Shown here: in pieces, positions 38,607 through 53,995 of the stretch
Layout: each line of letters begins with the position of its first letter
Numbering within the stretch: the stretch's first letter is position 1
Source: Protonemura montana
Taxonomy: Eukaryota > Arthropoda > Insecta > Plecoptera > Nemouridae
NCBI GenBank assembly: GCA_947568835.1
Contig: OX387602.1
Location: forward strand, 16,791,021-16,855,020
Length of the DNA: 64,000 nucleotides
Direction of reading: 5' to 3'
Made by a program: the position numbers and the translations under genes
The notes under the pieces: generated by a model
Seen by the model: the letters and a program-made list of their open reading frames with translations, nothing else
The model's database searches: none
Told to the model about the DNA's origin: nothing

Positions 38607-38741
38607 TTGATGGCCAGCAGCAATATTTCCGAATCAAGCCGAAAGACGTGCGCGTCCATGAAGGCAGAGAAGCGACACTCCACTGTGAGGTCACCAACCA
38701 AGCCGGGCAGGTGCAATGGACCAAAGACGGTTTCGCTCTAG
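38607..38741 (+). CDS. sns: Receptor exon: first half of Ig1
   Basis: It enters and leaves in phase 1. It encodes DGQQQYFRIKPKDVRV, the first Ig cysteine in LHCEV, and the family signature VQWTKDGFAL. Flanks are a TTCCAG acceptor and a GTAACT donor. This is the most upstream exon I can support. Confidence 0.9.
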   Translation: MMASSNISESSRKTCASMKAEKRHSTVRSPTKPGRCNGPKTVSL

Positions 38742-41700
38742 GTAACTAATGGCTGGACCCTCCCTCCAACGCTGCACGCCTCCTGCTGCTATGCATCTTC
38801 AGCCATATGATGAGTCGTACATTACAGTATATAGTGTGTCCAAGCAAAGGATTTTGCTGTCCGTTCTGCAGCGTCATCCGTTCCTCTTTCTGCTCGAATA
38901 TGGGAAGCTGAATTGGGAACGCAAAGCCAGCGATTTTGAATGGAGTTATAATAGTGGCTGAAGTTACTAATAGTTTATATTGTTTGCTACCTACTACACT
39001 GTGCAGTTTATATGGATAATTTTGTGTTTGCGATATCTAGCATGCGATTGGTTTCGTCAGCACGCATTTTTGTTTTCTTTTCTCGATAACTCACGGGGCA
39101 AACTTATTTTCTGGGGTTTCATTTCATTATCGAAAAATGTTCAGACGTCAATGCCTACGCTTCCGAAAAGTCGTACGGTAGTAAATTATGAAAGAGAAAA
39201 CTTGCGGGCTCTGGAGAAAAAACATGCATACCTGGCACGACATACCATCTATATATAGTTAATAAGACTATATATCATCCTTTGAATTAAAAATTTTCAT
39301 ATTCATAAAAAAAAATCCTTTAGTAACGAAGGTTACTAAAATCTCGTTGGCATAAAGTGTCGACCACAGAGCGTTAGGGTGCGTCCCCGGACCCCAAATC
39401 TTGAGCGCACTATTTTCCCTGTTTCCGTCTATCCGTGGTCGCTGTGCTCGGCGTCACGCGCTAATGATCGGGGAGGAATTACGATCACGAGCAAGACGAT
39501 AAACAATGCCCGGCGAATCATATTCAGCGCGAGCGACTCGGCTGACATTCACAATCAATTATGCCCGTTGGAGATTGTGCGGCGCCGATGATTTATGTCC
39601 GCGACAGCATCCAATGGGCCCGGTGGAGGTGCCGCTTTGCGATACGCTAAGGCGTCGTCGTCGGCGGCGTCGACGTTCACCTCCATAATCTCGCTCGACT
39701 CGCGCGACGCTCGGACAGTTGAAATGGAAATCCTGAGAGATTGTTGCAGCTCCTACGAACGTTCCTGTCACCGAGATTATATTTTCATCCTCAACACGGA
39801 CTCCTGTGGGTTGAATATATCCGTTGCGGCTGAAATATTGAAATAGGATAAACCCTAAACATAATATAGGCAAGTACGGACTGCTAAAACATTCCGTATA
39901 GCGTACTTTATATACGAATAACCACTATTCATTATTGACGATGGTAATTTAGACTCAGAAGATTGTTTTTTAAGCCTTTTAAAGCTTGACTATCGTCCTC
40001 GGTTCTCTAGCAGCTTTTTTCTAATCCTGATTAAATTTTAAGAGTGGTTTCATATCTCGAACGTAGAGCTAAAATAAATGCGAAATTCGAAACAGAAGAC
40101 ATTTAATCGCATTCGTCCGTCGTTTCAACCTCCAGTAGCAGAGATAGAAATCGTTAAGGATAATCTTAAATGATTTCACGTCTTGGTTTGATACGAAACA
40201 AGTAGTAGTTCTCCTGAAACAAAAAAAAACTGGATTAATTGAACGGTTTGGATAGCGTGGGCTAATGTAAAAAGTGTGGTTTGCCAAACTTTCGACGCTA
40301 TACGCTTACAATAATGGCTGTAGCATCCTGCTACGGTTTTTCGAATCGCCTTGCCTTTCCGACAGGTTTTTCCTCTTTGCCTCCTTCAGGACTCCCTGGA
40401 CAGGATCAGGGTCGTAAAGTATCGTCCCTCTCGTATCGCAGCGGTCGGGCCCGCCGGATCGGTCAAGCGAGACGCCGCCGTCGTCGTCGTCTTCGACGCC
40501 AACCTCTTGCCCCCGCAACTTGGAACGAGCTGTTAACGGTTTGCCCGAGTCTTATAGGGGAGATCCGCACAAGCTCTCCACTTTATTACTAATTAATGCC
40601 GGCCGATCTCTTCCCAACTGCCGCCTATAGCTTATTTTTATCGTTGACACGAAATAAACAGAGAATTTACTCGCAGGACGAGGCTAGAAACCGTTTGATC
40701 ACGAGAGCCTGACCGCCTATCATCGCCGCACACCTATTTTTACAACGCGGTCAAGATGGCAAAAGAAGAAAAAGTGCCGAGTCGTGCCGTAACTTATTCC
40801 CTGCAAATATAATCACATTTCAACTTCGTCCACGAGTTGAAAGTTGTCCAAACTCCAAAGTTAGTTGTTACGTCCATAAACTTGCCGAGCGTTTGTTCTT
40901 CCGAAGACCTCCGTCCAGGTGGACCATCATACCAGATGAAGCTAACGAGAAGCAACAATAGGATACCCACTAAGAGAAAAAGAAGTAGAAGCCGTCCCCG
41001 GCCGAAGTCCTGACCAGTTTGCTCCACTCCTCACATGGGTTCGGCTGCTGCAATCATTATTATAATGTATCTATGGCGGTCAGATGCTATGCAGCCACTG
41101 GTCCGTTAGATTCACCTACTACCTAGCCTACTTAATGACCAGCGCATGTTTTTACACAAGTTCAATGTAATTATGTTGTGTGTGCTTTCGTTACCTCACT
41201 ACGCTCATTGATGGCTGTACGCACTACTGGTAGTTTTTCATGCAATCAAGAAAGTGATTGAAGGAAACACCTTGCTGAGTGCCAGCTGACATGCGAATCA
41301 CCATGTGCGTGGGGGGCGCGTAAGAGGCTCAGAATGTCATTATTTATGTAGGCGATATATCTTCGACAAAAAATCGCCCGCAGGAATAGGTATTTAAATA
41401 TTTCAAGTAACCTACGCAGTGTTTGAATACTGCAAAGTCTTCTCGTTTTTTGCAGAAAAATATCAATTAGCATAAAACAGAATGAAACGTATGGCGATAT
41501 TTCCAGTCATTTGTTTGTCCTAGATACTTATAGCAGCCCCCGTATACAACTACAGCACACCTTGTCGATAGGGCAGGGCGCTGTCACAATTGGTGGCAGA
41601 TTACATAAAGGTTAAAAATGCATGCATAATTTTGAAAACTCGTAAATTTGTTATTTGCGTTTTGTTATATGTGAAGAGATGGTTATCATCGGGAAGCACA

Positions 41701-44700
41701 CTGTCATTGCGGTGGGTCGTAGCTATTGAATCAAGCTTTGTTTTCATCCATTGTCTCGAAAGCCGACTCTGTTTTGTCCAATCAGAGATGCGTGCTCCAG
41801 TACATTACGAGCTCCATCAATTCAACACACGCGGCTGCAGACCAAACTGTGTGATGGACCGTTTTTATTAGATTCGAACATCTTGCTTTACTCTGATTGC
41901 AATTAGAAGGATTTAATTAATTATACTTGCGAGTTGCAAGCCATTCCCTTTTAATATCTGAGGGCTTGTATTGCAGATACTGTACTCATATTATATTAAG
42001 TATTCTAATAATAATTTGCTTAGCGTCGTGGTTGAAGTCTAATTAAAGCGAAGAAACTTGTCTTAAGTAAATTTATCGTCTCAAATATCATGCCGAGATT
42101 ACACAACTGCATCGTACCATTTCCAGTACAAATAACATGAAAAATAGAAAAGAAAAGAAAAGCCTAACATTTTGTGTAAAATTCCTTTCGTTCAGCGAGA
42201 GCAAATTAGCTGTTGATCTTGACGAGATCGGGCTCGGCCCCAGAGAACAGACCACAGCAGAGATTATTTATTCGAACCTTCTGTCTGTCTATTGCCTGGC
42301 TATTGTTGTGCTACCACAATAGTGCTACTTTATCTGAGATCGTGAATAGACCCATAAGCGTGAGCCGAGAGCCGGCCGATCAAACCACGTCACGATCTGC
42401 CCTTTTTGTGCGTTTAAAAAACATGATTAGTAAATTTGGAAGGAATGGAAAACCAACAGATACTGCGTAACCGATAAAGACGCCTCCAATTCAGTCGTTA
42501 CGCTGTAATCTTTAATGTTACCTGTTTTTCAGCTTTTTCATTTTTAACCGAAATCGACTTGAAATGTGGCATCAACCTGTTTACCGATGATCGCTCGATA
42601 TAAAAAGAGATGACCCGTTATAGGCACCTTAAGCCGATGTTAATAGAAGATCGTAGCATAAAATTAAAGAAAGCTAGTGATTCTATGCTACATTGGTGGG
42701 TAGACTGTAGGTAGCATTTTTGTAGTCGCATACCGCTAGCCCCAATCGAGATAATTGTTGTAATCTATGTCGTCGAGAGTCGAAGGTATCGTACCCATTA
42801 GCGGCTGCTGCGCGACAAAAACATTTTCTTGTTCTGGATCAGCAGACATGAATCGAATGCTGAATGTCTCAACCGATTGAACGCGTGATTGACTGCAAGC
42901 AAGTGGCTTTAATTGCACTTGACGATGCACTTTGTGTGCGTACGCGACACGTGCTCCACGCACGTGTCGCCTGCGTTTGCTCGATGCATTCCACTGCGTT
43001 TCCAATAAAATGTAAGTCTGGATGGGTATCCTTGGATCTGCATTCAGCCATCTCTTTGTGATGCGACCAAGGCTTCTAGCAAATGTCCCTCTAACCGACC
43101 GGACAGACTCCAGTAGTTCATCACAATACTTTTTCTTGTGATTAATCGTAAAATTATGTTCACGAGCTACGCATGTCTGATTTCCAACTAGATACACCAC
43201 GTCTTGAATTCTGATTCTAGGAAAATTAAATCCAAAAAGAAAAATCAAATTGCCCATTCCTGAACTTAAGTGAGTAAAATTTATCGCTTTTTCCCTCCGC
43301 AAGCTATGATTTCTCACATCCTCGGCATCTTCGCACGATTGATCCTCTTACATGAAATTGCCTTTCGCCTAGAGAGGTTTTAGTTGAGATCGAGTTGCAG
43401 CATTAATGCACGCTAGAGGTACGACATCGATTCTTAACTTGCTCGGGTAGAACGACATATTTTATTGGTAAAAGCCAAAAGATTCTGGTTATCGAGTACG
43501 TGGCATTTGAACGAACTCACAAAATAGATAGGTATATATACCCACATCCGATCAGTGTCTTTGAAGCCCGTCGATCGCCACTTGACTGCGAGCGAACGAC
43601 TCGCAAGCAAGGCTGCAACTTGAGACTTGGCTGCTGCAGGTGAATTGCACGGAGGCTCGGTGACACAATAAAACACCAGAGAGTGCTCAGCGAACACCTT
43701 GATGTTGTCGCAATCGAGTGCCGAACGTTATTGCTCTCCATTTCAGGCTTCAGCGCTGTCATCCCGGGCTTCCCTCGCTACTCTGTGATCGGCGACGGCA
43801 AGAGCGGCGTCTACAACCTGCGAATCAGCAACGCCTCTCTGGAGGACGACGCCGAGTACCAATGCCAGGTCGGCCCCGGGAAGTTCATCAAAGCCATCCG
43901 CGCGAATTCGAGGCTCAGCGTCATCTGTAAGTACACAGCCATGCGATAAATTATTGAAAAAGGTGTTCAATATTCAGTTGTTGAAACGCGACAATTATAT
44001 GTCACATGCAATATTCCAGCTCGATGTATATAGTGGGAATAACTCGTATAACGATTGGGTTGTTAATATGAAATATCGCCGGCACTGTCGGTGACAGACA
44101 ATCAATGTGTCAAACATGTGATGTCGTTATGCTGGCGGCGGCTTCGTCGTCGTCGTCGTCGCGAAGGCCTGGCCGCGCCAATTGTCACATTTCGACGATC
44201 GGGAAGTGGAACAATGGGTTTGGCGGGCCGACGTCGTTTGTGCAAGCGTCGAGCTCTGAACTTCCTTTTTTCGTAGTGAAGATAGAGAGAGAAATATATA
44301 TTGTTTTTGACTTATTTGTGTATCGTCGTCCAATATCCTAGCATCACAAGAGGAAGCCAAGAAAAAAAGGCGATATATTGAATATTGGAATTCTTGTGTC
44401 TCGCAGCTCCGCCGTCGTCTATTGAGATTGTCAATCACTCTGCCAACGCCAAGCTAGAGATTCGCGAGAACCAGGAGTTCCAACTCGAGTGCCAAGTGAA
44501 GAACTCGAAACCGGCAGCCAAGGTGGTCTGGTACCGAGGGAACGTCGAGCTGAAACTAGGTACGTCGCATCCAACCTCTCCCTCACAGTTTTCTTGGTGC
44601 CGTGTCAAGAAGGAGCGCGGCCTCCCCGCGATGCCGCGTCGCTTTCGTGGGACGTGCCAACTTGTCACAGAAGTTCGCTAATTTCCATCCCTCCGAGATC

Positions 44701-47700
44701 CATCACGCCTGCATCCATTTGTGGCCCGATTTCTCCCGCTCTCGGTGCGAGTCTGGAATCCTGGTTTCCTCGCCGTGCGGCGTTCGGGCACGGGGACACG
44801 AGGGGTCCTATTACAAACGATATTGCTGAGTGGATGGATGGTTAGTCTCATCCGTCAATAATGACAGCTGGGGAGCATTTTAACGCGTGCTTTATGCCCA
44901 CCCCCGCCCGCTCACCCGCCCACTGCTCCCAGTTCACCCTTGCCCTCACCCCTTCTCCCTCGGCGCGTTCAAAATAAACACGCTATAACTTTGCTAGAGC
45001 CAAGATTCGGGAGATATTTCCATGGAGCTCAACTGCATAGGCCACAACATGACTAATCGGGCGGTTAGTGTTTCAACACATCAATTCAAATTTAAAACAA
45101 ATCATCCCTAGAGAGAACAAAGTGAAAAGTGTATTTGCAGTTTTTCAAGCGATGTGTTGGCGACCTGGAAATGGGAGTTTTTGTTTTCTTAGCGGAAAGT
45201 TCGCGAGTCAAATAATGCCAATATTGTTCGCCGTCGTATTAATCATTAATTCGCGCCATTATGAAAATCCTCTTCCGACGAGTTGTCATATTTTATTCCC
45301 GATTTCGCTTTTAGAATTTTAGAATAAAGTCATTAATCTTTCTGCAACGTGTCATTGTCTGGATAACAATCTTTCTCTGAAACATTTCAAGCTGATGAAT
45401 ATTCCCTCCATCTTCACCTACAAAACACTTATGACTCCATAAATCACAAATTTGCGGAACGGCACGGCGTTTATCATTCGAAGTCACTTCGGTGGAAGCG
45501 CCCGATTCTACCTCGTGTTTTCCGAAGCGACCCTCTTCATTAACGCCCCCCAAGGGCTTCTCTTATTTCCCCTTCATGGCCCATTGATAGCCAACGCGTC
45601 TGGACCAAGTTTATCTCAGTTCGGAACTGAAAAATGGGAGACACTAGATATTGACGCAGTGGGTGTTTCAATGCATGCCACATAACTCTTGTCATTTTCC
45701 AGGTCAATGAATATTTGGGCTTTCGACTTGAGAAAATCGCAAGCAAATCAATCTCGTGGCGTTCTTGATAACGCCGAAACATCAACACGCGTTGTTTCAA
45801 CTGTTTTCCAGACAAGCGAGAAGACACGACTGTCGAAGTGGAATCTGCAGACCGCAGGTCTAAGCGCTTCACAGTGACTAGCCGAATCAAACTGCAGCCG
45901 ACCGCTGAAGACGACTACGCGGACTACACATGTGAGGCGAGGCATGAGGCCCTGCCCAGCGATATGCCTCTGAGAGTCACCGTCCAACTGAGCGTACAAT
46001 GTAAGGTGGAATCGGCTATCGCCGGTTATCAAAATTACAATATAAACAACCTTGGGAGTGTATGAGAAAATGGTCCCTAGGGATGCAAGAAAGGAGTTTT
46101 CAGAAATGGAGCGTTTGCTAGGAATAGAAGCGATCGAAGGAAGTTTGTGTGGGTGGGTGGGGAGGTTACTGTTAGTTTCAAAGTTTATGTGTGGGACGAA
46201 CTGCATTGCAATAGGGAAGTTGGAGTGAAAACAAAATTGCGATAGAAAATGATGTTATGTCTGGACGCTGGATATCCTCATTTAATATATAATGCACTGT
46301 TAAATTCCAGCTCAATCAAGACATGGGATGAATATTAAATATGCTCATAAATATCACTATGACATACCTATATACATGAGGGCATCCAAGAATTTTACAC
46401 TTGCATAATAAAGCATTCTCTCTGGTAGTGCAATACATATTTCATGGCTCACAAACTTTGTAATATAAATAATGGAATGCCAGCTTTTTAATAAACCTGC
46501 CCTGTAAAAATATCATTTGAAACCTGATGGTTTTTTGCAACACTTTTCTAATTCGATGCGCCCCAACAGATCCTCCTGGAGTTCCGTACATTGAGGGCTA
46601 CACGGAAGGAGAGACTATACGACGTGGACAATCGATGGAGATGACCTGCCGATCTCGAGGAGGAAACCCGCCGGCGCAGCTTATCTGGTACAAGAACGAC
46701 GAGCAGATCCGCATGGCATACCGCACCAACGGACGGCTCTCTGAGAACATCTACTCATTCACGGCAGACTCGAGCGACAACAAAGCCAAGTACCGCTGCG
46801 AGGCATCGAACATCATGAGCCCGGCACCGCTCAAGACAGAAATTGCACTCACTGTGCTATGTAAGTAGTTTCTGCCATTAAGGATTGAGTTTTCCCATCC
46901 ACCATTGGTCAAATACAAGCCTTCACTCATATTATAAATGTCAAAATATAAAAAGAATGCAAGGGGATTGAAGATTTAACAAGCTACCAATATAATTGCC
47001 AGGCCTGGTCTACTTTTTCACACAACTTTTATTACTGCCAATACCAGGAGGAACTAATGACTGGAAACTAATTTTCTCTTTTTTGTTGTATTTTAGATGA
47101 GTTTTGCATGGGGCAAACCAAACTCCATTTACAAATGTGTTGGCTTTCAAATTACCATGTGGGCAGAGAAAACTTTATTCAATCTTCATTTCTACTGAGA
47201 ATTTACTTTCTGTGTGAAATGCATTGTTACACATGACATGTGGCAATGGAACCTGTAACAGAATAAGAAAATCTTGTCAATTAGAGGAGTGATTTTGCCG
47301 CATCATTTGCCTTGCTTGGATTTCCTTTTTGCATCAAGAAGTTGCTGAAACATGTTTCATTTACTAATTGCTAAATGTAACAAGTCCAACATAGCAAACC
47401 AGCTAGTAACCAGCCTACTAAAGAACCTCGTTTTTGCAATAAATGTTTACTGCTCTGTTCTATTCCACCCAAACTTGTTTTTATAACAAGTTGGTAATAA
47501 TAACTTGCAACAATCATTTACCCACCAAGCATTAAATTAACTCCTGGTTCTGACATAGGTTTTTAGTAATTAACCAACTTCAGTCTGAAGTTGTTTCTCA
47601 TTTTCAGATATTACTAACCAGTTAAATTATATGTTACCCAGTCATTTATGAGTCCTAATAAATTTGGAACCCTGTTTTTCAATGATTTAACATGGCTTCC

Positions 47701-50700
47701 CTTGCATGAACGTCTGGAAGATAAAGCTAACAGCTTATTGTGCATTCTAGTTGCGCCGGCGCAGGTGACGATAACGGGAGCGACAGAAGCCCGTGTCGGT
47801 GACTCGGTGCAGCTGATCTGCACCACGGCCAACAGCAACCCACCGGCGGAGATCAAGTGGATGGTGAGCGGCAAACACGTCCGCAACGCCACTGGCCGCA
47901 CGGTTGTCTCACCCGATGGCGGATGGGTCACCTCATCCAACATCTCCGTGCCGATTGGGCCGAACAAACGCTCACTAGTCGTCATTTGTCATGGGCTCAA
48001 CATGCAGCTTACTGAGAACGTAGTCAGCACACACACAATCAACGTGCTACGTGAGTTACACTGATAGCTGGTTGGCGGTTTTAGTGGATTCATTGTTGTG
48101 GGATATGCCTTCTTTAGGGCTGTTTTAGTTTGTAACTGTTCTATCAAACAAGACTTTATATAAGTCTGTCAGCAAAATTAGCTAGTGGAATGCTTCAAAT
48201 CAAAAACTATCTTTTGATATCTTTTGGTTTTATCTTCATTTTGATTATTTGTCGCTAAACATGACATTATATAAAACGTCAGCAAGTTAGTAAAAAAAAA
48301 AGCCGTAATTATTAATTCACTTTCTTTAGATCCTCCAAGCCAGCCAATAATCCATGGCTATGAGAAAGGCTCCAATATCGTTGCCGGCACCATCACGAAG
48401 ATTGCGTGTACATCATCTGGAGGGAATCCTCTTGCAACTGTTGCCTGGTACAAAAACGACAAGCCTGTAAACTCGGTGACCGAAGTGAACGATCAAAACC
48501 GTTCGGTGACTTCAAAGGTCACCATCGTTACGAACGTCACCGACAACGAGGCTCGCTACAAGTGTGAGGCAACCAACTCAGCGTCAGACATCCCGCTCTT
48601 TGAGACTGTCACCCTCAACGTACACTGTAAGTACACTGTGTACACTGTACATAAGTTTTGGAAAGAAAATAAATAGGAAAGAGGATAGTAGTGTTTCAGA
48701 AAGAAGCCATCTTAGAAGCTACCTGTGTTGTTTTTATTAGAGGAAACATGTAATTTTGCTCTAGTTCTTAAAGTCCTAACTGCAAATTATTTTAGTTAAT
48801 TTCTTTAACAAATGTAAGCGCAGAAGTATCTAACAACTTTTTATAGACACAATGCATGCTTTCAATGCTATGTTCTAACATGTCCCGTCTTTGCAGTTCC
48901 CCCAGAACACGTGCAGATCCGCAAGGACCCGATGGAGCTTAAGACAGGAGTGAGGGCGACGCTGACATGCGACTCGAGCTCAAGTAACCCGGAGGCACGC
49001 CTAAGCTGGTGGCGCGAAGGCATCCCAGTGGCCGGGCTGACCAACACAACCAAACCAGGCTTGCATGGCGGCAAACTGTCCAGCATCGCGCTCACGCTCG
49101 ATATCAAGCCCGAGCTCAACGGCATCGTCTACACATGCCAAGCAACTAACGAGGCTTTGCAACGCAGCGTGCACGATGCCATCACCCTTGAAGTGCTTTG
49201 TGAGTAGCTTTACTGACGTTGAATAGGATTGAAGTTTAACCAATCGGCAGTTTCAACTAGCATCTGTGTCTCAGCCTAATTGTCATGCAATATTTTGTAA
49301 TTTTTGTAATTAAAAATACTTCTCTATTATTGGGTTTCTTCTTGTGTCATTATAACTCTTTGAATGTCCATTGCTTCACAAGTGTTGGCTGTTTGTATGT
49401 TGGTTGTTTGGTGGCTTATCCAGTACATTTTTATGTCTTCACTGCCCATAAAGTTCACACTTTTTGTGCCTTTGCAGACAAGCCAATGTTTGAGGTGCCT
49501 GCGATGGAAGCGCAAATCGGCATCGAAGGCCAGCCGCTAGTACTTGCAGTAGAGGCGAAAGGAAACCCCTCGAGTATCGCGTACACATGGACCAAGGATG
49601 GAAAGAAAGCTACGCTTGCCGAAGGACCCGTCCTGAATATTACCAAGCTACGAAAGGAGGACTCCGGTGTCTTCAAATGTGAAGCCGTCAACAGCGAAGG
49701 CTCTTCTTTCGTCAAGATCAACCTCACAGTTCAATGTAAGATTCGGGTTTGTTTGCTTATATGGATTTATGTTTGGTTTACCTTTAATAAGATACCAAAA
49801 ATAAATTTGAATACTGTCACGATATCCATTTTCAAAACTTGATGCTATCAAGAAAGTTGCATATACAGTGGCTGACCTCAGTCGATACAAACTACAATAC
49901 AATTCCATGTGTGTTCAACTATTAATGCAATTACTTCTTTCACCAGATTCTGCCACCATCAAGCCTGAGCCATCAGCTGTGTTTGTGAATCCCGGTGAAG
50001 ATGCACAGCTGTACTGCGTTGCGGAAGGAAACCCATTAGCAGAGAGCCACATTAGCTGGCGCCGCGAAGGCTTCTCCAACGAGGATATGGAGTCCCGCAC
50101 TGCGAAATCGTACCGAAATGGCACCTCCTTCCTGGCCATCCACCAGCCTACGAAAGATGACAACGGCCCATTTGAATGTATTGTTAACAACGGCATTGGA
50201 AACCAGTCCACCAAGTCGGTTTATCTTGTTGTGAAATGTAAGTAAACTTTAAATAGCAAGATTCACCAAACACATAACCTTTTTGAGCCAGGAATTTTTT
50301 CTAGAGTGATCACTATTTACATGTTGTGGTTTGTTTTGTTTAGACAAGCCAGAGATCGACACATCCCCGCAAATCTCGAAAGCGGCGAGTAACACTGGAG
50401 ACATGGCTCGCCTTGTCTGTCGTGCATCTGGCGCTCCGAAAGTGCGCTTTGTTTGGTCGCGAGAGGGCGGAATTATTCCTGTCAACCAGACAGAGAAATA
50501 TTTCACAGAATATCATCAGGTAAATAGGATATTTTGCTTGCACAGGTTTGTGCTTAAAAAAGTAGATTAGGATTAGGATTGGAAGGGTTTTGGATTATCT
50601 CGAGACTGTTCTTACAGTGTAACTTTTCCTCAAATCAGCTCATTTCATCCCATTATCATTTTGTTATAACTTGGTTCCCTTGTTTCAGCTCGACTTGGTG

Positions 50701-53640
50701 ACTTACGAGACAGTTTTGCTTGTGAAGCATGTACGCTCGTCCGACTACGGCGGCTTTGAGTGTGTAGCTCGCAACGACATTGGTTTTGCAACAACGACGA
50801 TTCGGCTAGACGTTACATCGGCCCCAGATCCTCCATCGGCTCTCACAGTGCTAAATGTGACCCACGACAGTGTCACCATCTCCTGGATTCCAGGTGAGGA
50901 ATTTCTGAATGCTTGTACTACCTAAATCTAACTAATAAATGCTTATATTGTTTGTCTAGTCTCTAACTGTTATAACAATATTGTTTTCTTTTGCAGGGTT
51001 TGATGGAGGCATGGAGCCATCCTACAGGCTACGCTATCGTCTGTTTACCAACACCGAGGATGGATACCGCTATGTCGATATTTTGACTCCGAATGCGACT
51101 AGTTTTGTGTTGACAGGTCTGGCCATGGCCACGGACTACACAGTCAGCATCATGGCCTTTAACAAACTCGGCAGCAGTAAATACTTACCCGACTTACTGA
51201 AGGCACGCACCTCAAGTGAGTACTCAAATTGTTGCAATCATTGTTATCTGGATTTATGGATGGATATTTGGTGTGCGGATAACTGTGAATTTTGCTAAAC
51301 AATGTAAAACTAGTAAACAAAAGTTTAGGAGAAAAACCAGATCAAAGTTGTTTCCAGTTTTATACTTTCTAATAAATTAACAAAGTTTATACTTTCTTCA
51401 TGTTTAACACACTTTGTAATTGATAGCGATACGAAATTACTCTACTCACCTACTGCCTGTAAAGTAATTAATTTGTACCCCTCGTGAGCATCTCAACAGC
51501 TTCACACATTAGTCTTATTATTACGCCTATTTATAATCCACGCTTACTGGCTACCGCCATATCACGCTTCGCTAACCCTGCCAATGCTTCTAATTCTTAA
51601 CAACGCTAATGTTTAACCGCATGGGTGTAACGGTGGCTGCATGTTGGCTGTCCTAACAGATGAGGCTCCTCCTTCGTTTCACTCCCCGAGCCAAGACGAG
51701 CAACAAGGTGGTGGGCTCGTGGTCCTAATCGCCACCATTGTCGGCACCGCGGTGTTGATTCTCAACGTGCTCTTGATCGGCTGCTGTTTGCACCGCAGGG
51801 CCAACAAACGTTTGACAGGTACGATTGCTATCTTCACATTCTAGGTCATGCCGATCGGCAGCAAGCAATCGACGAAATCCTGCTCGGAAAGGGAGACATT
51901 CCGCGCCAGGTCATTATCGGAGTTGCCCTCACTGCTGGTCTTTTGGTAGTAATCAATGTCATCATTGTTTTCTACTTCATTTACAAAAAGAGAAGCAAAA
52001 GACTTAAAGAAGGTATTGTCAATGTCCTTTTATGATTTAATTATCTGTTTGTTTATTTTTTAAATCATTGTCATTAGCTACGAGGTGTCATTTCACTGCA
52101 TTATGAAGAAAGGAAAGGACAAAAAATATTGCATTTTTCACACAATAGATTTTCCAATCTACCTCAATTGTTTACTTAACTGATCGCCCTCACAGGTGAT
52201 TTAAACAAGAAAAGTAGTTCAAATTGACTTATCTTTCTATTCTTGTTCAGCGGCAAGTGAGCAGAGCTCCAGCAAGTCAGCTACGATAGAGATGTATGCA
52301 CCAAGCAGTTACAACGAAACTGTTACCGGGGAGACACTCAGCTCCGTGTCAGAGAAGAGTGAGAGCTACTCCAACGGAGACGGCCAGGGAGAATACTTGG
52401 TACGGACAGGCCTCGGTCATAAGTTGTGATGAAGTTGCTTGTGGATTTAACCACGATGAAATGTAGTACTCCACAGAAGTTCATCATAAAAGCCAGATTA
52501 GCTCCAAAGTCACAAACACTTTCATGGAAATCAGTAAGCGATGGATATGCAGCTCTGCCCTGTTTGTTGATGGAAAAACCATTCCAGTATAGTCCTAGGA
52601 AATAAATGAAAACCAAGACCAGGGTAGCTAGCTGCCAGCATCAAATCCAAATGTCATGTGATATTGTGAGATCCTAATAGAATATAAATCCCTTCCTCTG
52701 ACGATTGATTTCATTTTCACAGGAGGACGGCACTAAGGCTGCGGCCAGCACTTATCTGATTGATCAGATGGAGTACCCATACACTCCGTACCCCAACTAT
52801 GAGATGCAGCACCAACCGAAGCTTCACCAGGAGGAGGTGCAGCAGCACGACATGTCAAGGAACACGTACAACCATGCCATTGATGGTATGTCGAACATTG
52901 CATAGAATGGAAAGAAAGCTAGACTTCCAGTCCAGCTTCCTTTCCATCATCCGCTTGCTGGTTTAAGCTCCCTAACGGAAATGCCAAAAAAACCAAAAAA
53001 CATTGCATAGAATGTTATCCCACGAAAGCATAAGACTATGAATTTGTAGAGCTTCTTAACAAAGAATTCATCTGTATGTTGCTACGTACAGGTTTAGGAA
53101 ATGTAATGACCATTTTAAAATAAAAAAAGGACAAAGGAGATTTTATAACATCCCTGCTAACCTTATAACTTATAAGCCAAGGATTCATTTCAGATAAAAA
53201 GTGCACTGTTACTTAACCAAATAGTCAGCTCGTCCAAGAAATATAAATGCAGTGGCAAAAGGCTCTACCTAACTTGCAATGCCTGTCTGTTCACAGCCCC
53301 CAAGCTGCACTACAGCAGCGTTCCTGCAACGCACGTCGTCGACGGACCGTACTACAACATCTCGCCCGACGCGCGCTACATCCCCTACCCAGCGCAGATG
53401 GAGTTCTCGCACGTGCCGCAAAGCGTTGGCAACACTGGGTCGTTGCGTCGGCCGCAGCATCGTGGCCCCGTGGTGCCGCCTGATGTTACGGTTTCTCACA
53501 CGCTGCCCCCACAGCACCACTTACACAACGGGCCGTCCGTGCTTGCCGCGCACCACCTCCCGCCTGCGCCCATGCTCTCTACGTTTAACCCCGGACTCAA
53601 CTATCCGCCCACCATGGAGCAAGAGGGGCATCTCGTGTGA
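38607..53640 (+). CDS. sns: Nephrin-family Ig receptor (sticks-and-stones/hibris type), full recognised coding span
   Basis: A single-pass cell-adhesion receptor. Known insect relatives bind Kirre/Roughest-type partners in trans in myoblast fusion, nephrocyte diaphragms and eye patterning. Seventeen exons join in one frame of 1270 codons: nine Ig domains, one fibronectin III, one membrane span and a cytoplasmic tail. The first Ig is diagnostic, with QWTKDGFALGF followed by IPGFPRYSV and DDAEYQCQVGPG. All introns are GT-AG and most are phase 1. The start codon and signal peptide are missing: the first exon here begins mid-codon (phase 1) after a clear acceptor. An alternative membrane exon is listed separately. 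Whether it is the orthologue of sns or of its paralogue hbs cannot be settled here; the symbol marks the family. Confidence 0.88.
39622..39634 (+). promoter_or_regulatory. Recurring 13-mer, copy 5
   Basis: Reads GGTGGAGGTGCCG, inside the 5-kb intron of the receptor gene. Confidence 0.4.
42736..43317 (-). CDS. Unrecognised antisense open frame in the receptor intron
   Basis: A 193-codon frame, the longest in the window, that is not a shadow of a known exon. A good pyrimidine-rich acceptor on the minus strand ends at 43217, so the real coding part, if any, could be 42736-43216 as a terminal exon. The predicted C-terminus is acidic and Tyr/Asp/Asn-rich (DDIDYNNYLDWG), and the middle is basic. 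I recognise no domain and see no membrane span. It could be the last exon of a nested gene, a pseudogene or chance. Confidence 0.2.
   Translation of the reverse strand: MRNHSLRREKAINFTHLSSGMGNLIFLFGFNFPRIRIQDVVYLVGNQTCVAREHNFTINHKKKYCDELLESVRSVRGTFARSLGRITKRWLNADPRIPIQTYILLETQWNASSKRRRHVRGARVAYAHKVHRQVQLKPLACSQSRVQSVETFSIRFMSADPEQENVFVAQQPLMGTIPSTLDDIDYNNYLDWG
43747..43926 (+). CDS. sns: Receptor exon: second half of Ig1
   Basis: Phase 1 at both ends. It encodes GFSAVIPGFPRYSV, YNLRISNASLEDDAEYQCQ and the closing strand IRANSRLSVI. The match to the nephrin/sns first Ig is strong. The acceptor is TTTCAG and the donor GTAAGT. Confidence 0.93.
43927..44406 (+). other. Intron of 480 bp
   Basis: Contains a perfect small hairpin-like GTC array at about 44143-44167 (CTTCG, five GTC units, CGAAG). 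Nothing else is seen. Confidence 0.8.
44407..44559 (+). CDS. sns: Receptor exon: first half of Ig2
   Basis: Phase 1 to phase 1. It encodes PPSSIEIVNHS, the B-strand cysteine in LECQV, and VVWYRGNVELKL. The GTACGT donor follows. Its match to the sns/nephrin second Ig includes the WYRGNV motif. Confidence 0.92.
44560..45811 (+). other. Intron of 1252 bp
   Basis: Splits Ig2. Open frames just after the donor at 44560 are read-through with no Ig features. I see no alternative exon. Confidence 0.75.
45812..46000 (+). CDS. sns: Receptor exon: second half of Ig2
   Basis: Phase 1 to phase 1. It begins DKREDTTVEVES and carries IKLQPTAEDDYADYTCEA with the F-strand cysteine, then LPSDMPLRVTVQLSV. The acceptor is TTTTCCAG and the donor GTAAGG. 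Confidence 0.9.
46001..46569 (+). other. Intron of 569 bp
   Basis: AT-rich intron with no feature seen. Confidence 0.8.
46570..46860 (+). CDS. sns: Receptor exon: Ig3
   Basis: A single symmetrical phase-1 exon encoding one complete Ig: PPGVPYIEGYTEGE, cysteine in MTCRSRGGNPPA, LIWYKND, and KAKYRCEASN. The donor is GTAAGT. Confidence 0.93.
46861..47750 (+). other. Intron of 890 bp
   Basis: AT-rich with no coding feature seen. Confidence 0.8.
47751..48050 (+). CDS. sns: Receptor exon: Ig4
   Basis: A symmetrical phase-1 exon for one Ig. Cysteines fall in QLICTTANSNPPA and VVICHGLN, with the core Trp in EIKWM. The donor is GTGAGT. Confidence 0.92.
48330..48626 (+). CDS. sns: Receptor exon: Ig5
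   Basis: A symmetrical phase-1 exon for one Ig. It starts PPSQPIIHGYEKG and contains IACTSSGGNPLA, VAWYKND and ARYKCEATNSA. It closely parallels the Ig3 exon, which suggests an internal duplication. The donor is GTAAGT. Confidence 0.93.
48897..49199 (+). CDS. sns: Receptor exon: Ig6
   Basis: A symmetrical phase-1 exon for one Ig with LTCDSSSSNPEA, SWWREG and VYTCQATNEA. The donor is GTGAGT. Confidence 0.93.
49478..49735 (+). CDS. sns: Receptor exon: Ig7, lacking the first cysteine
   Basis: A symmetrical phase-1 exon. The Ig fold is clear from YTWTKDG and EDSGVFKCEAVNSEG, but the B strand reads PLVLAVEAKGNPS, where a cysteine is expected. The usual disulfide therefore cannot form and the F-strand cysteine is unpaired. 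The exon is also shorter than its neighbours (258 bp). Confidence 0.9.
49947..50237 (+). CDS. sns: Receptor exon: Ig8
   Basis: A symmetrical phase-1 exon with AQLYCVAEGNPLA, ISWRREG and DDNGPFECIVNNG. The acceptor is TTTCACCAG and the donor GTAAGT. Confidence 0.93.
50344..50519 (+). CDS. sns: Receptor exon: first half of Ig9
   Basis: Enters in phase 1 and leaves in phase 0. It encodes KPEIDTSPQISKAAS, RLVCRASGAPKV and FVWSREGG, ending YHQ before GTAAAT. It is one of only two phase-0 breaks in the gene. Confidence 0.9.
50689..50893 (+). CDS. sns: Receptor exon: end of Ig9 and start of fibronectin III
   Basis: Phase 0 to phase 1. It completes Ig9 with SSDYGGFECVARNDIG, then starts the FN3 domain with APDPPSALTVLNVTHDSVTI and the conserved SW. 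The donor is GTGAGG. Confidence 0.92.
50997..51215 (+). CDS. sns: Receptor exon: rest of fibronectin III
   Basis: Phase 1 to phase 1. It encodes GFDGGMEPSYRLRYR, FVLTGLAMATDYTVSIMAFN and KLGSSKY, the typical FN3 F and G strands. The donor is GTGAGT. It must splice to one of two membrane-span exons. Confidence 0.92.
51216..51659 (+). other. Intron of 444 bp before the alternative membrane exons
   Basis: AT-rich with no further exon seen. It ends in a CTAACAG acceptor for exon A. Confidence 0.75.
51660..51818 (+). CDS. sns: Receptor transmembrane exon A (alternative)
   Basis: Phase 1 at both ends, 159 bp. It encodes a Ser/Gln/Gly-rich extracellular stalk (EAPPSFHSPSQDEQQGGG), a membrane span beginning LVVLIATIVGTAVLILN, then basic HRRANKR. 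The donor GTACGA starts at 51819. It joins in frame to both the FN3 exon and the tail exon at 52251. It cannot be spliced to exon B because only 26 nt separate them. Confidence 0.85.
51845..52012 (+). CDS. sns: Receptor transmembrane exon B (alternative)
   Basis: Phase 1 at both ends, 168 bp. It encodes a different stalk (HADRQQAIDEILLGKGDIPR), a membrane span beginning VIIGVALTAGLLVVINVI, then KKRSKRLKE. A pyrimidine-rich acceptor ends CTAG at 51844 and the donor GTATTG starts at 52013. In-frame with the same partners as exon A. The branch point for its acceptor must lie within or at the edge of exon A, so use of A and B should be mutually exclusive. Confidence 0.85.
52251..52399 (+). CDS. 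sns: Receptor exon: cytoplasmic tail, part 1
   Basis: Phase 1 to phase 0. It encodes ASEQSSSKSATIEMYAPSSY and a Ser/Glu-rich stretch ending GQGEYL. It has potential Tyr and Ser phosphorylation sites and no enzyme domain. The donor is GTACGG. Confidence 0.85.
52400..52722 (+). other. Intron of 323 bp
   Basis: No feature seen. Confidence 0.75.
52723..52885 (+). CDS. sns: Receptor exon: cytoplasmic tail, part 2
   Basis: Phase 0 to phase 1. It encodes a Tyr-rich run (STYLIDQMEYPYTPYPNYEM) and a Gln/His-rich part. Tyrosine motifs of this kind act as SH2 docking sites in nephrin relatives; here that is inferred. The donor is GTATGT. Confidence 0.87.
52886..53296 (+). other. Intron of 411 bp
   Basis: AT-rich, no feature seen; it ends in TTCACAG. 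Confidence 0.75.
53297..53640 (+). CDS. sns: Receptor last exon: cytoplasmic tail C-terminus
   Basis: Enters in phase 1 and ends with TGA at 53638-53640. It encodes APKLHYSSVPATHVVDGPYY, then Pro/His-rich sequence with SH3-like proline runs (RGPVVPPDV, LPPAPM), and ends EGHLV. A hydrophobic C-terminal valine may bind a PDZ domain, as known for related adhesion receptors. Confidence 0.9.
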
Positions 53641-53995
53641 TGCTGTCACCGTAATCGCCACTCGTTGTTATCCCCTCCCCAGACAAGCCCTGAAACGGCC
53701 CGAAGACAAAGTCACGACGGTCACGACTGGACAATGTTAAGCCTACGAGAAAGAGATTGTGCCTACCTAGCATTAGGTAGTTAGTTTTTTGACTTTGAAT
53801 TGACATGTCCTGTTTTAATTTTGGCCGAATGCGTGTTTTAACGTGTTTCGTCGATGGATATTATGTATGTTACGTACGTGCAAGTTAAATTATATTTATC
53901 AGCTATCCGGTGAAATCAGTGTGGAATGCATAGACATACAAGTGATGGCTTGTGTCCGATAACTTGACTCGGAATAAATCGTTCCTGGCCCCGGC
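53641..53995 (+). other. Receptor 3' UTR with candidate poly(A) signal
   Basis: Non-coding after the stop codon. A canonical AATAAA lies at 53973-53978. Longer forms reaching the AT-rich stretch near 55.7 kb cannot be excluded. Confidence 0.55.

Follow-up and report, generated by a model that had tools for sequence, protein, structure and literature searches.

A probable pair of mutually exclusive transmembrane exons, 26 nucleotides apart, in a nephrin/SYG-2-type gene of Protonemura montana

Transmembrane exons that exclude one another have been described in two arthropod adhesion genes. In Dscam1, the alternative versions of exon 17 give TM1 and TM2 forms that go to dendrites or axons, their spans acting in a sphingolipid-dependent manner (PMC9880076), and two exon 17 variants are present in each of the Coleoptera species examined (PMC8042237). 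In N-cadherin, exons ME-18a and ME-18b form a mutually exclusive pair encoding part of the transmembrane domain; it is conserved in arthropods but single in Apis, and the two versions show graded homophilic interactions with no difference in localisation seen (PMC2655722). A short spacing between exons is one proposed cause of such exclusivity. A distance from donor to branch point of less than 50 bp was found in 57 of the human clusters (9%; the figure legend gives 629 clusters), and for a pair of exons encoding a transmembrane helix independent cassette splicing was called highly unlikely (PMC5740500). Of the introns that separate the variable exons in the exon 6 cluster of Coleoptera Dscam1, more than 45% are shorter than 50 bp (PMC8042237). 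These statements, like the later ones that carry a citation, are drawn from excerpts of the papers concerned. The present analysis deals with a stretch of 64,000 nucleotides (nt) of the Protonemura montana genome (contig C1, positions 16791021-16855020; hereafter the window), which carries, in the region of interest, one multi-exon gene on the plus strand. This gene, assigned below to the nephrin/SYG-2 type, contains a real pair of alternative membrane-anchor exons, A and B, which are very probably mutually exclusive. Their layout in the window is as follows.

51660..51818, plus strand: exon A, 159 nt, encoding an alternative stalk, the membrane span LVVLIATIVGTAVLILNVLLIGCCL, an HRRANKR stop-transfer and a CysCys pair at the cytoplasmic face
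51819..51844, plus strand: gap of 26 nt, the donor of A running into the acceptor of B
51845..52012, plus strand: exon B, 168 nt, encoding an alternative stalk, the membrane span VIIGVALTAGLLVVINVIIVFYFIY and a polybasic KKRSKRLK stop-transfer, with no Cys

Both exons are in phase 1 at both ends and each has its own GT and AG sites (acceptor ...cctaacag and donor CAG/gtacga for A; acceptor ...cacattctag and donor AAG/gtattg for B). The highest mean hydropathy over 19 residues is 2.74 in A and 2.82 in B, and no other stretch of either protein exceeds 1.43. The stalk of A is rich in Ser, Pro, Gln and Gly while that of B is charged, and the polybasic stretch is longer in B than in A. The CysCys pair of A, located at the inner face of the membrane, could be a palmitoylation site.

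A strict scan for anchor exons (pyrimidine acceptor, length of 100-250 nt with phase 1 at both ends, hydropathy of at least 2.6 followed by at least four K/R, then a donor), applied to both strands of the window, returned exactly two matches, which are A and B. None was returned from 20 Markov-generated sequences of 64 kb (one strand each). With the scan relaxed to any phase and to a hydropathy of 2.2, A and B were still the only matches in the window, and 20 segments of 10 kb of other genomic DNA, taken from four contigs and read on both strands, gave none. In the introns on either side neither scan located a further anchor exon, the mould being strict enough for real transmembrane exons of another build to escape it. 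The pair of anchor exons is real and not a product of chance. The initial annotation of this DNA had proposed two membrane-anchor exons at this place, which both scans bear out; its coordinates for A, B, the gap, the donor at 51215 and the acceptor at 52251, together with the lengths and phases, all proved correct when rechecked.

It is likely that A and B are mutually exclusive transmembrane exons and that the short gap enforces this. Under such a scheme the donor at 51215 would be joined to the acceptor of A or to that of B, and the chosen exon would then be joined to the acceptor at 52251. Direct joining of A to B would be barred, as 26 nt leave too little room for donor, branch point and acceptor to be suitably spaced. 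Indeed the whole gap is shorter than the distance of about 50 nt between donor and branch point under which steric interference is proposed. The top-scoring candidate branch point for B is predicted to lie within exon A.

51810..51816, plus strand: GTTTGAC, candidate branch point for B within exon A (branch adenine at 51815), predicted with a matrix of the branch-point consensus

This adenine is located 4 nt ahead of the donor of A and 30 nt ahead of B. GTTTGAC scored 4.33 and the sole candidate within the gap, among the five listed, -1.74, the matrix being a simple one typed by hand. Since the likeliest branch point of B would thus be inside A, use of the donor of A and use of the branch point of B should exclude each other, occupation of one blocking the other.

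The remaining products of the locus can be read from its frames. If the gap is retained, the frame of A runs on for 8 residues to a TAG stop at 51842-51844. If A is joined to B without the gap, the chain has two membrane spans. If both exons are skipped, the frame is kept. The TAG at 51842-51844 is the acceptor of B itself, so that this acceptor doubles as a fail-safe stop. The earlier proposal that the short gap blocks joining thus appears supported by the anatomy described here and by established splicing rules. It had also been pointed out that skipping both exons keeps the frame. This is true but says little: of the 13 introns that begin at the donor of an ectodomain exon (38741 to 51215), 12 are in phase 1 in any case, and for this reason the preserved frame provides no evidence for a soluble form. 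Such a form, produced by skipping both exons, is possible in so far as the frame permits it. The two anchored receptors would have the same ectodomain and the same tail and would differ in stalk, span and juxtamembrane region; the anchors may steer localisation or clustering, as do those of Dscam1.

The gene model into which the pair is inserted comprises the following elements.

38607..53642, plus strand: nephrin/SYG-2-type gene, from the exon model
38607..51215, plus strand: thirteen ectodomain exons encoding an immunoglobulin (Ig) array, then one fibronectin III domain, from the open exon model, Pfam and the SYG-2 match
50997..51215, plus strand: exon before the anchor pair, fibronectin III (FN3) region, donor CAA/gtgagt, phase 1, from the exon model
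52251..53642, plus strand: three cytoplasmic-tail exons common to both forms (52251-52399, 52723-52885 and 53297 to the stop, the model ending at 53642)

The model runs from end to end without interruption; its product has 1269 residues in the A form and 1272 in the B form. Upstream of it the window yielded no signal-peptide exon. Pfam profiles matched eight Ig_3 stretches, an N-terminal V-set and one fn3 domain on the model protein. When the first 415 residues were compared with solved structures, C. elegans SYG-2 was the top match (E 1.4e-51), with Roughest and Kirrel-1 coming next. The model carries all the features of the nephrin family, namely tandem Ig domains, one FN3 domain, a single membrane span and a cytoplasmic tail, and the tail presumably resembles that of Sns and Hibris. 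The receptor is, as judged from these similarities, of the nephrin/SYG-2 type. The initial annotation had called it nephrin-type, a description which the SYG-2 match and the Ig array plus fn3 uphold, and had rightly given 103 nt as the length of the smallest intron of the gene (located at 50894-50996), the 26-nt gap apart. The first intron of the model (38742-43746, between the first two ectodomain exons) is 5005 nt long; the others measure 103-1252 nt. When the FN3-anchor-tail and anchor-tail segments were used as queries against the genome of the same species (258 Mb, 34 contigs), no match off the locus was obtained at E <= 0.001 (8 and 6 candidates scored, respectively). No relative was found either for the conserved tail among viral contigs or for the FN3-anchor-tail segment among plasmids and prokaryote contigs, collections of non-animal sequences that have no bearing on conservation.

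Several lines of evidence bear on whether both exons are coding. Membrane spans have an odd residue make-up, and synonymous codon choice was tested separately for this reason, with 2000 draws of the same protein written in intron-like codons as the null. The synonymous score was reached by none of the 2000 draws for A and by 34 of 2000 for B, and that of A falls inside the range of 17 gene segments (0.04-0.58), segments which also trained the score. When splice sites were scored with the other sites of the gene (leave-one-out for those others), the donor of A, at 6.5 bits, was ordinary. The coding status of A is well supported; that of B is supported, more weakly than for A. Both exons are, we infer, in use.

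A number of observations weigh against use of the pair as proposed, and most of them concern B. The codon score in frame is 0.214 for A and 0.004 for B, compared with 0.223-0.746 for the 13 ectodomain exons, on which the score was trained. Over 213 intron windows it has a mean of -0.41 and a maximum of 0.327, the latter above both A and B, and one reverse frame of B scores 0.036, slightly above the value in frame. The synonymous score of B (-0.057) lies under those of all 17 gene segments. At 2.41 bits its donor is below all 15 other donors (4.9-11.6, leave-one-out), and 15.7% of the GTs in the window score as high. The acceptors of A (3.34) and B (3.07) rank low among the 16 others without falling outside their range (0.8-10.7, leave-one-out), with 11-12% of the AGs in the window matching the score of either. 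In an ungapped alignment of the two exons 6 of 32 residues are identical, and the two have in common an Asn-Val within the span and, close to the end, a KRL; the similarity score was equalled by 1 of 2000 whole shuffles but by 256 of 5000 segment-wise shuffles. The best alignment at the DNA level is short, with a score of 17 (without a control). An origin of A and B by exon duplication is thus plausible but unproved.

The weakness of B may be taken to mean that one exon is in use, probably A, and that the remaining one, probably B, is either a relic or a cassette included very rarely. No donor of the gene scores lower than that of B, and B is also the exon whose codon use least resembles that of the gene. 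On the other hand its 168 nt are free of stops and in phase, and they encode a full span and a stop-transfer; 57 open codons would occur by chance in about 5% of cases at intron composition, before any demand for a span, and no segment resembling B occurs in the 20 Markov sequences. A and B are moreover nearly unrelated in sequence, so that B is no recent duplicate still awaiting decay. We regard this explanation as unlikely. Far less probable still is that the regulated alternatives are not A versus B but retention of the gap (an anchored product ending 8 residues past the last whole codon of A) or skipping of both exons (a soluble product). The continuation of the frame of A up to its stop and the in-frame skipping agree with this proposal. 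However, the stop precedes three exon junctions, and by the established rule for such stops message decay would be expected here. Neither AATAAA nor ATTAAA occurs anywhere from A through the gap and B to the end of the following intron, and a complete anchor exon, B, would be left unexplained. The one AATAAA, at 51371, is upstream of A. Alternative polyadenylation after A was considered separately and rejected, as A, the gap, B and the following intron contain no signal.

It could also be that the pair is mutually exclusive but that RNA-binding proteins or competing RNA structures are the main determinants of the choice. This overlaps with exclusion by the short gap, so that the two are not additive, and as the principal cause we hold it to be rather unlikely. 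Two GCATG sites, with the core sequence bound by Rbfox, are found at 51619 and 51639, within 45 nt upstream of A. Close GCATG pairs (within 25 nt) nevertheless occur 4 times among the 61 sites of the window, which makes the pair near A unremarkable. Docking and selector sequences that pair with one another operate in the Dscam1 clusters (PMC8042237). At the present locus none of the six region pairs compared outdid its shuffled versions (for each, 20 to 55 of 60 shuffles were as well paired or better), a result that may weigh against the pair as well, in a crude test made on one species with long-region duplexes, which short conserved pairings could escape. Regulators may bias the choice, yet the gap by itself would already bar the joining of A to B. 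Mutual exclusion imposed by the short gap remains our preferred explanation.

The same genome was examined for known exclusive pairs of transmembrane exons that might serve as positive controls, and none was obtained from two cadherin places and a partial Dscam locus. The cadherin-tail family gave four matching stretches in three places (contigs C3, C1 and C16), two of which were read, and Dscam_C matched on C16. We take the C3 cadherin locus to be N-cadherin and its anchor exon to be ME-18-like. Just one transmembrane exon of this kind is found there (L014:8078-8236), as reported for Apis (PMC2655722), and no second copy was detected by tblastn in the 10 kb read. At the C1 cadherin place, no clear anchor exon was apparent in the 20 kb read. 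An unrelated observation concerns TTAGG, the usual arthropod telomere unit. Six tandem copies of it occur 6912 times in forward and 6102 times in reverse orientation in the genome (overlapping starts counted), in keeping with an arthropod. Some arrays, such as that at C1:16524876-16526433, are internal to C1, a contig of 33 Mb, and distant from its ends; they may be interstitial telomere repeats or elements that target telomeres.

Nephrin-type receptors act in slit diaphragms and in synapse choice. They act also, in the case of Sns and Hibris, in myoblast recognition and fusion (PMC6469413). In vertebrates podocin directs nephrin to lipid rafts, where the receptor is enriched (PMC12284917), and this makes the choice of anchor a sensible control point. 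The A and B forms could differ in partitioning, shedding or partner choice. A much bolder proposal, which we judge very unlikely, is that a single nephrin gene with a splicing switch between a palmitoylatable, raft-seeking A and a polybasic B does the job of fly sns and hbs together, the dipteran duplicates having each kept one anchor.

The kind of switch proposed here is already known from Dscam1 exon 17 and arthropod N-cadherin ME-18, and its occurrence in a nephrin-type gene appears to be new as far as the literature sampled extends. That search found no report of a transmembrane exon pair for a nephrin-type gene, gene databases and most subscription papers being outside its scope, so that the pair may be annotated there. 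In the main text of a 2011 method paper on the prediction of mutually exclusive exons, the words hibris, sns, hbs and transmembrane are absent. To our knowledge, short-gap exclusive exons have not been described as the transmembrane exons of a nephrin-type gene.

The locus can be set beside four groups of known systems. With Drosophila Sns and Hibris, C. elegans SYG-2 and vertebrate nephrin it has in common the Ig array, one FN3 domain, a single span and a cytoplasmic tail. With the short-gap exclusive exons (the 57 human clusters and exon 6 of Coleoptera Dscam1) it shares a gap or donor to branch point distance of less than 50 nt. Exons 17.1 and 17.2 of insect Dscam1 are likewise two mutually exclusive transmembrane exons of an Ig-superfamily receptor; Dscam1 differs from the nephrin/SYG-2 type, however, in having 10 Ig and six FN domains (PMC3364881). 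N-cadherin is a cadherin and not a member of the Ig superfamily, and its ME-18 exons carry part of the span whereas A and B each carry a whole one. If the proposed switch is real, this gene would join Dscam1 and N-cadherin as a third adhesion gene whose membrane span is itself varied by splicing, which would suggest that the swapping of anchors is a recurrent means of diversifying adhesion receptors while leaving ligand binding untouched.

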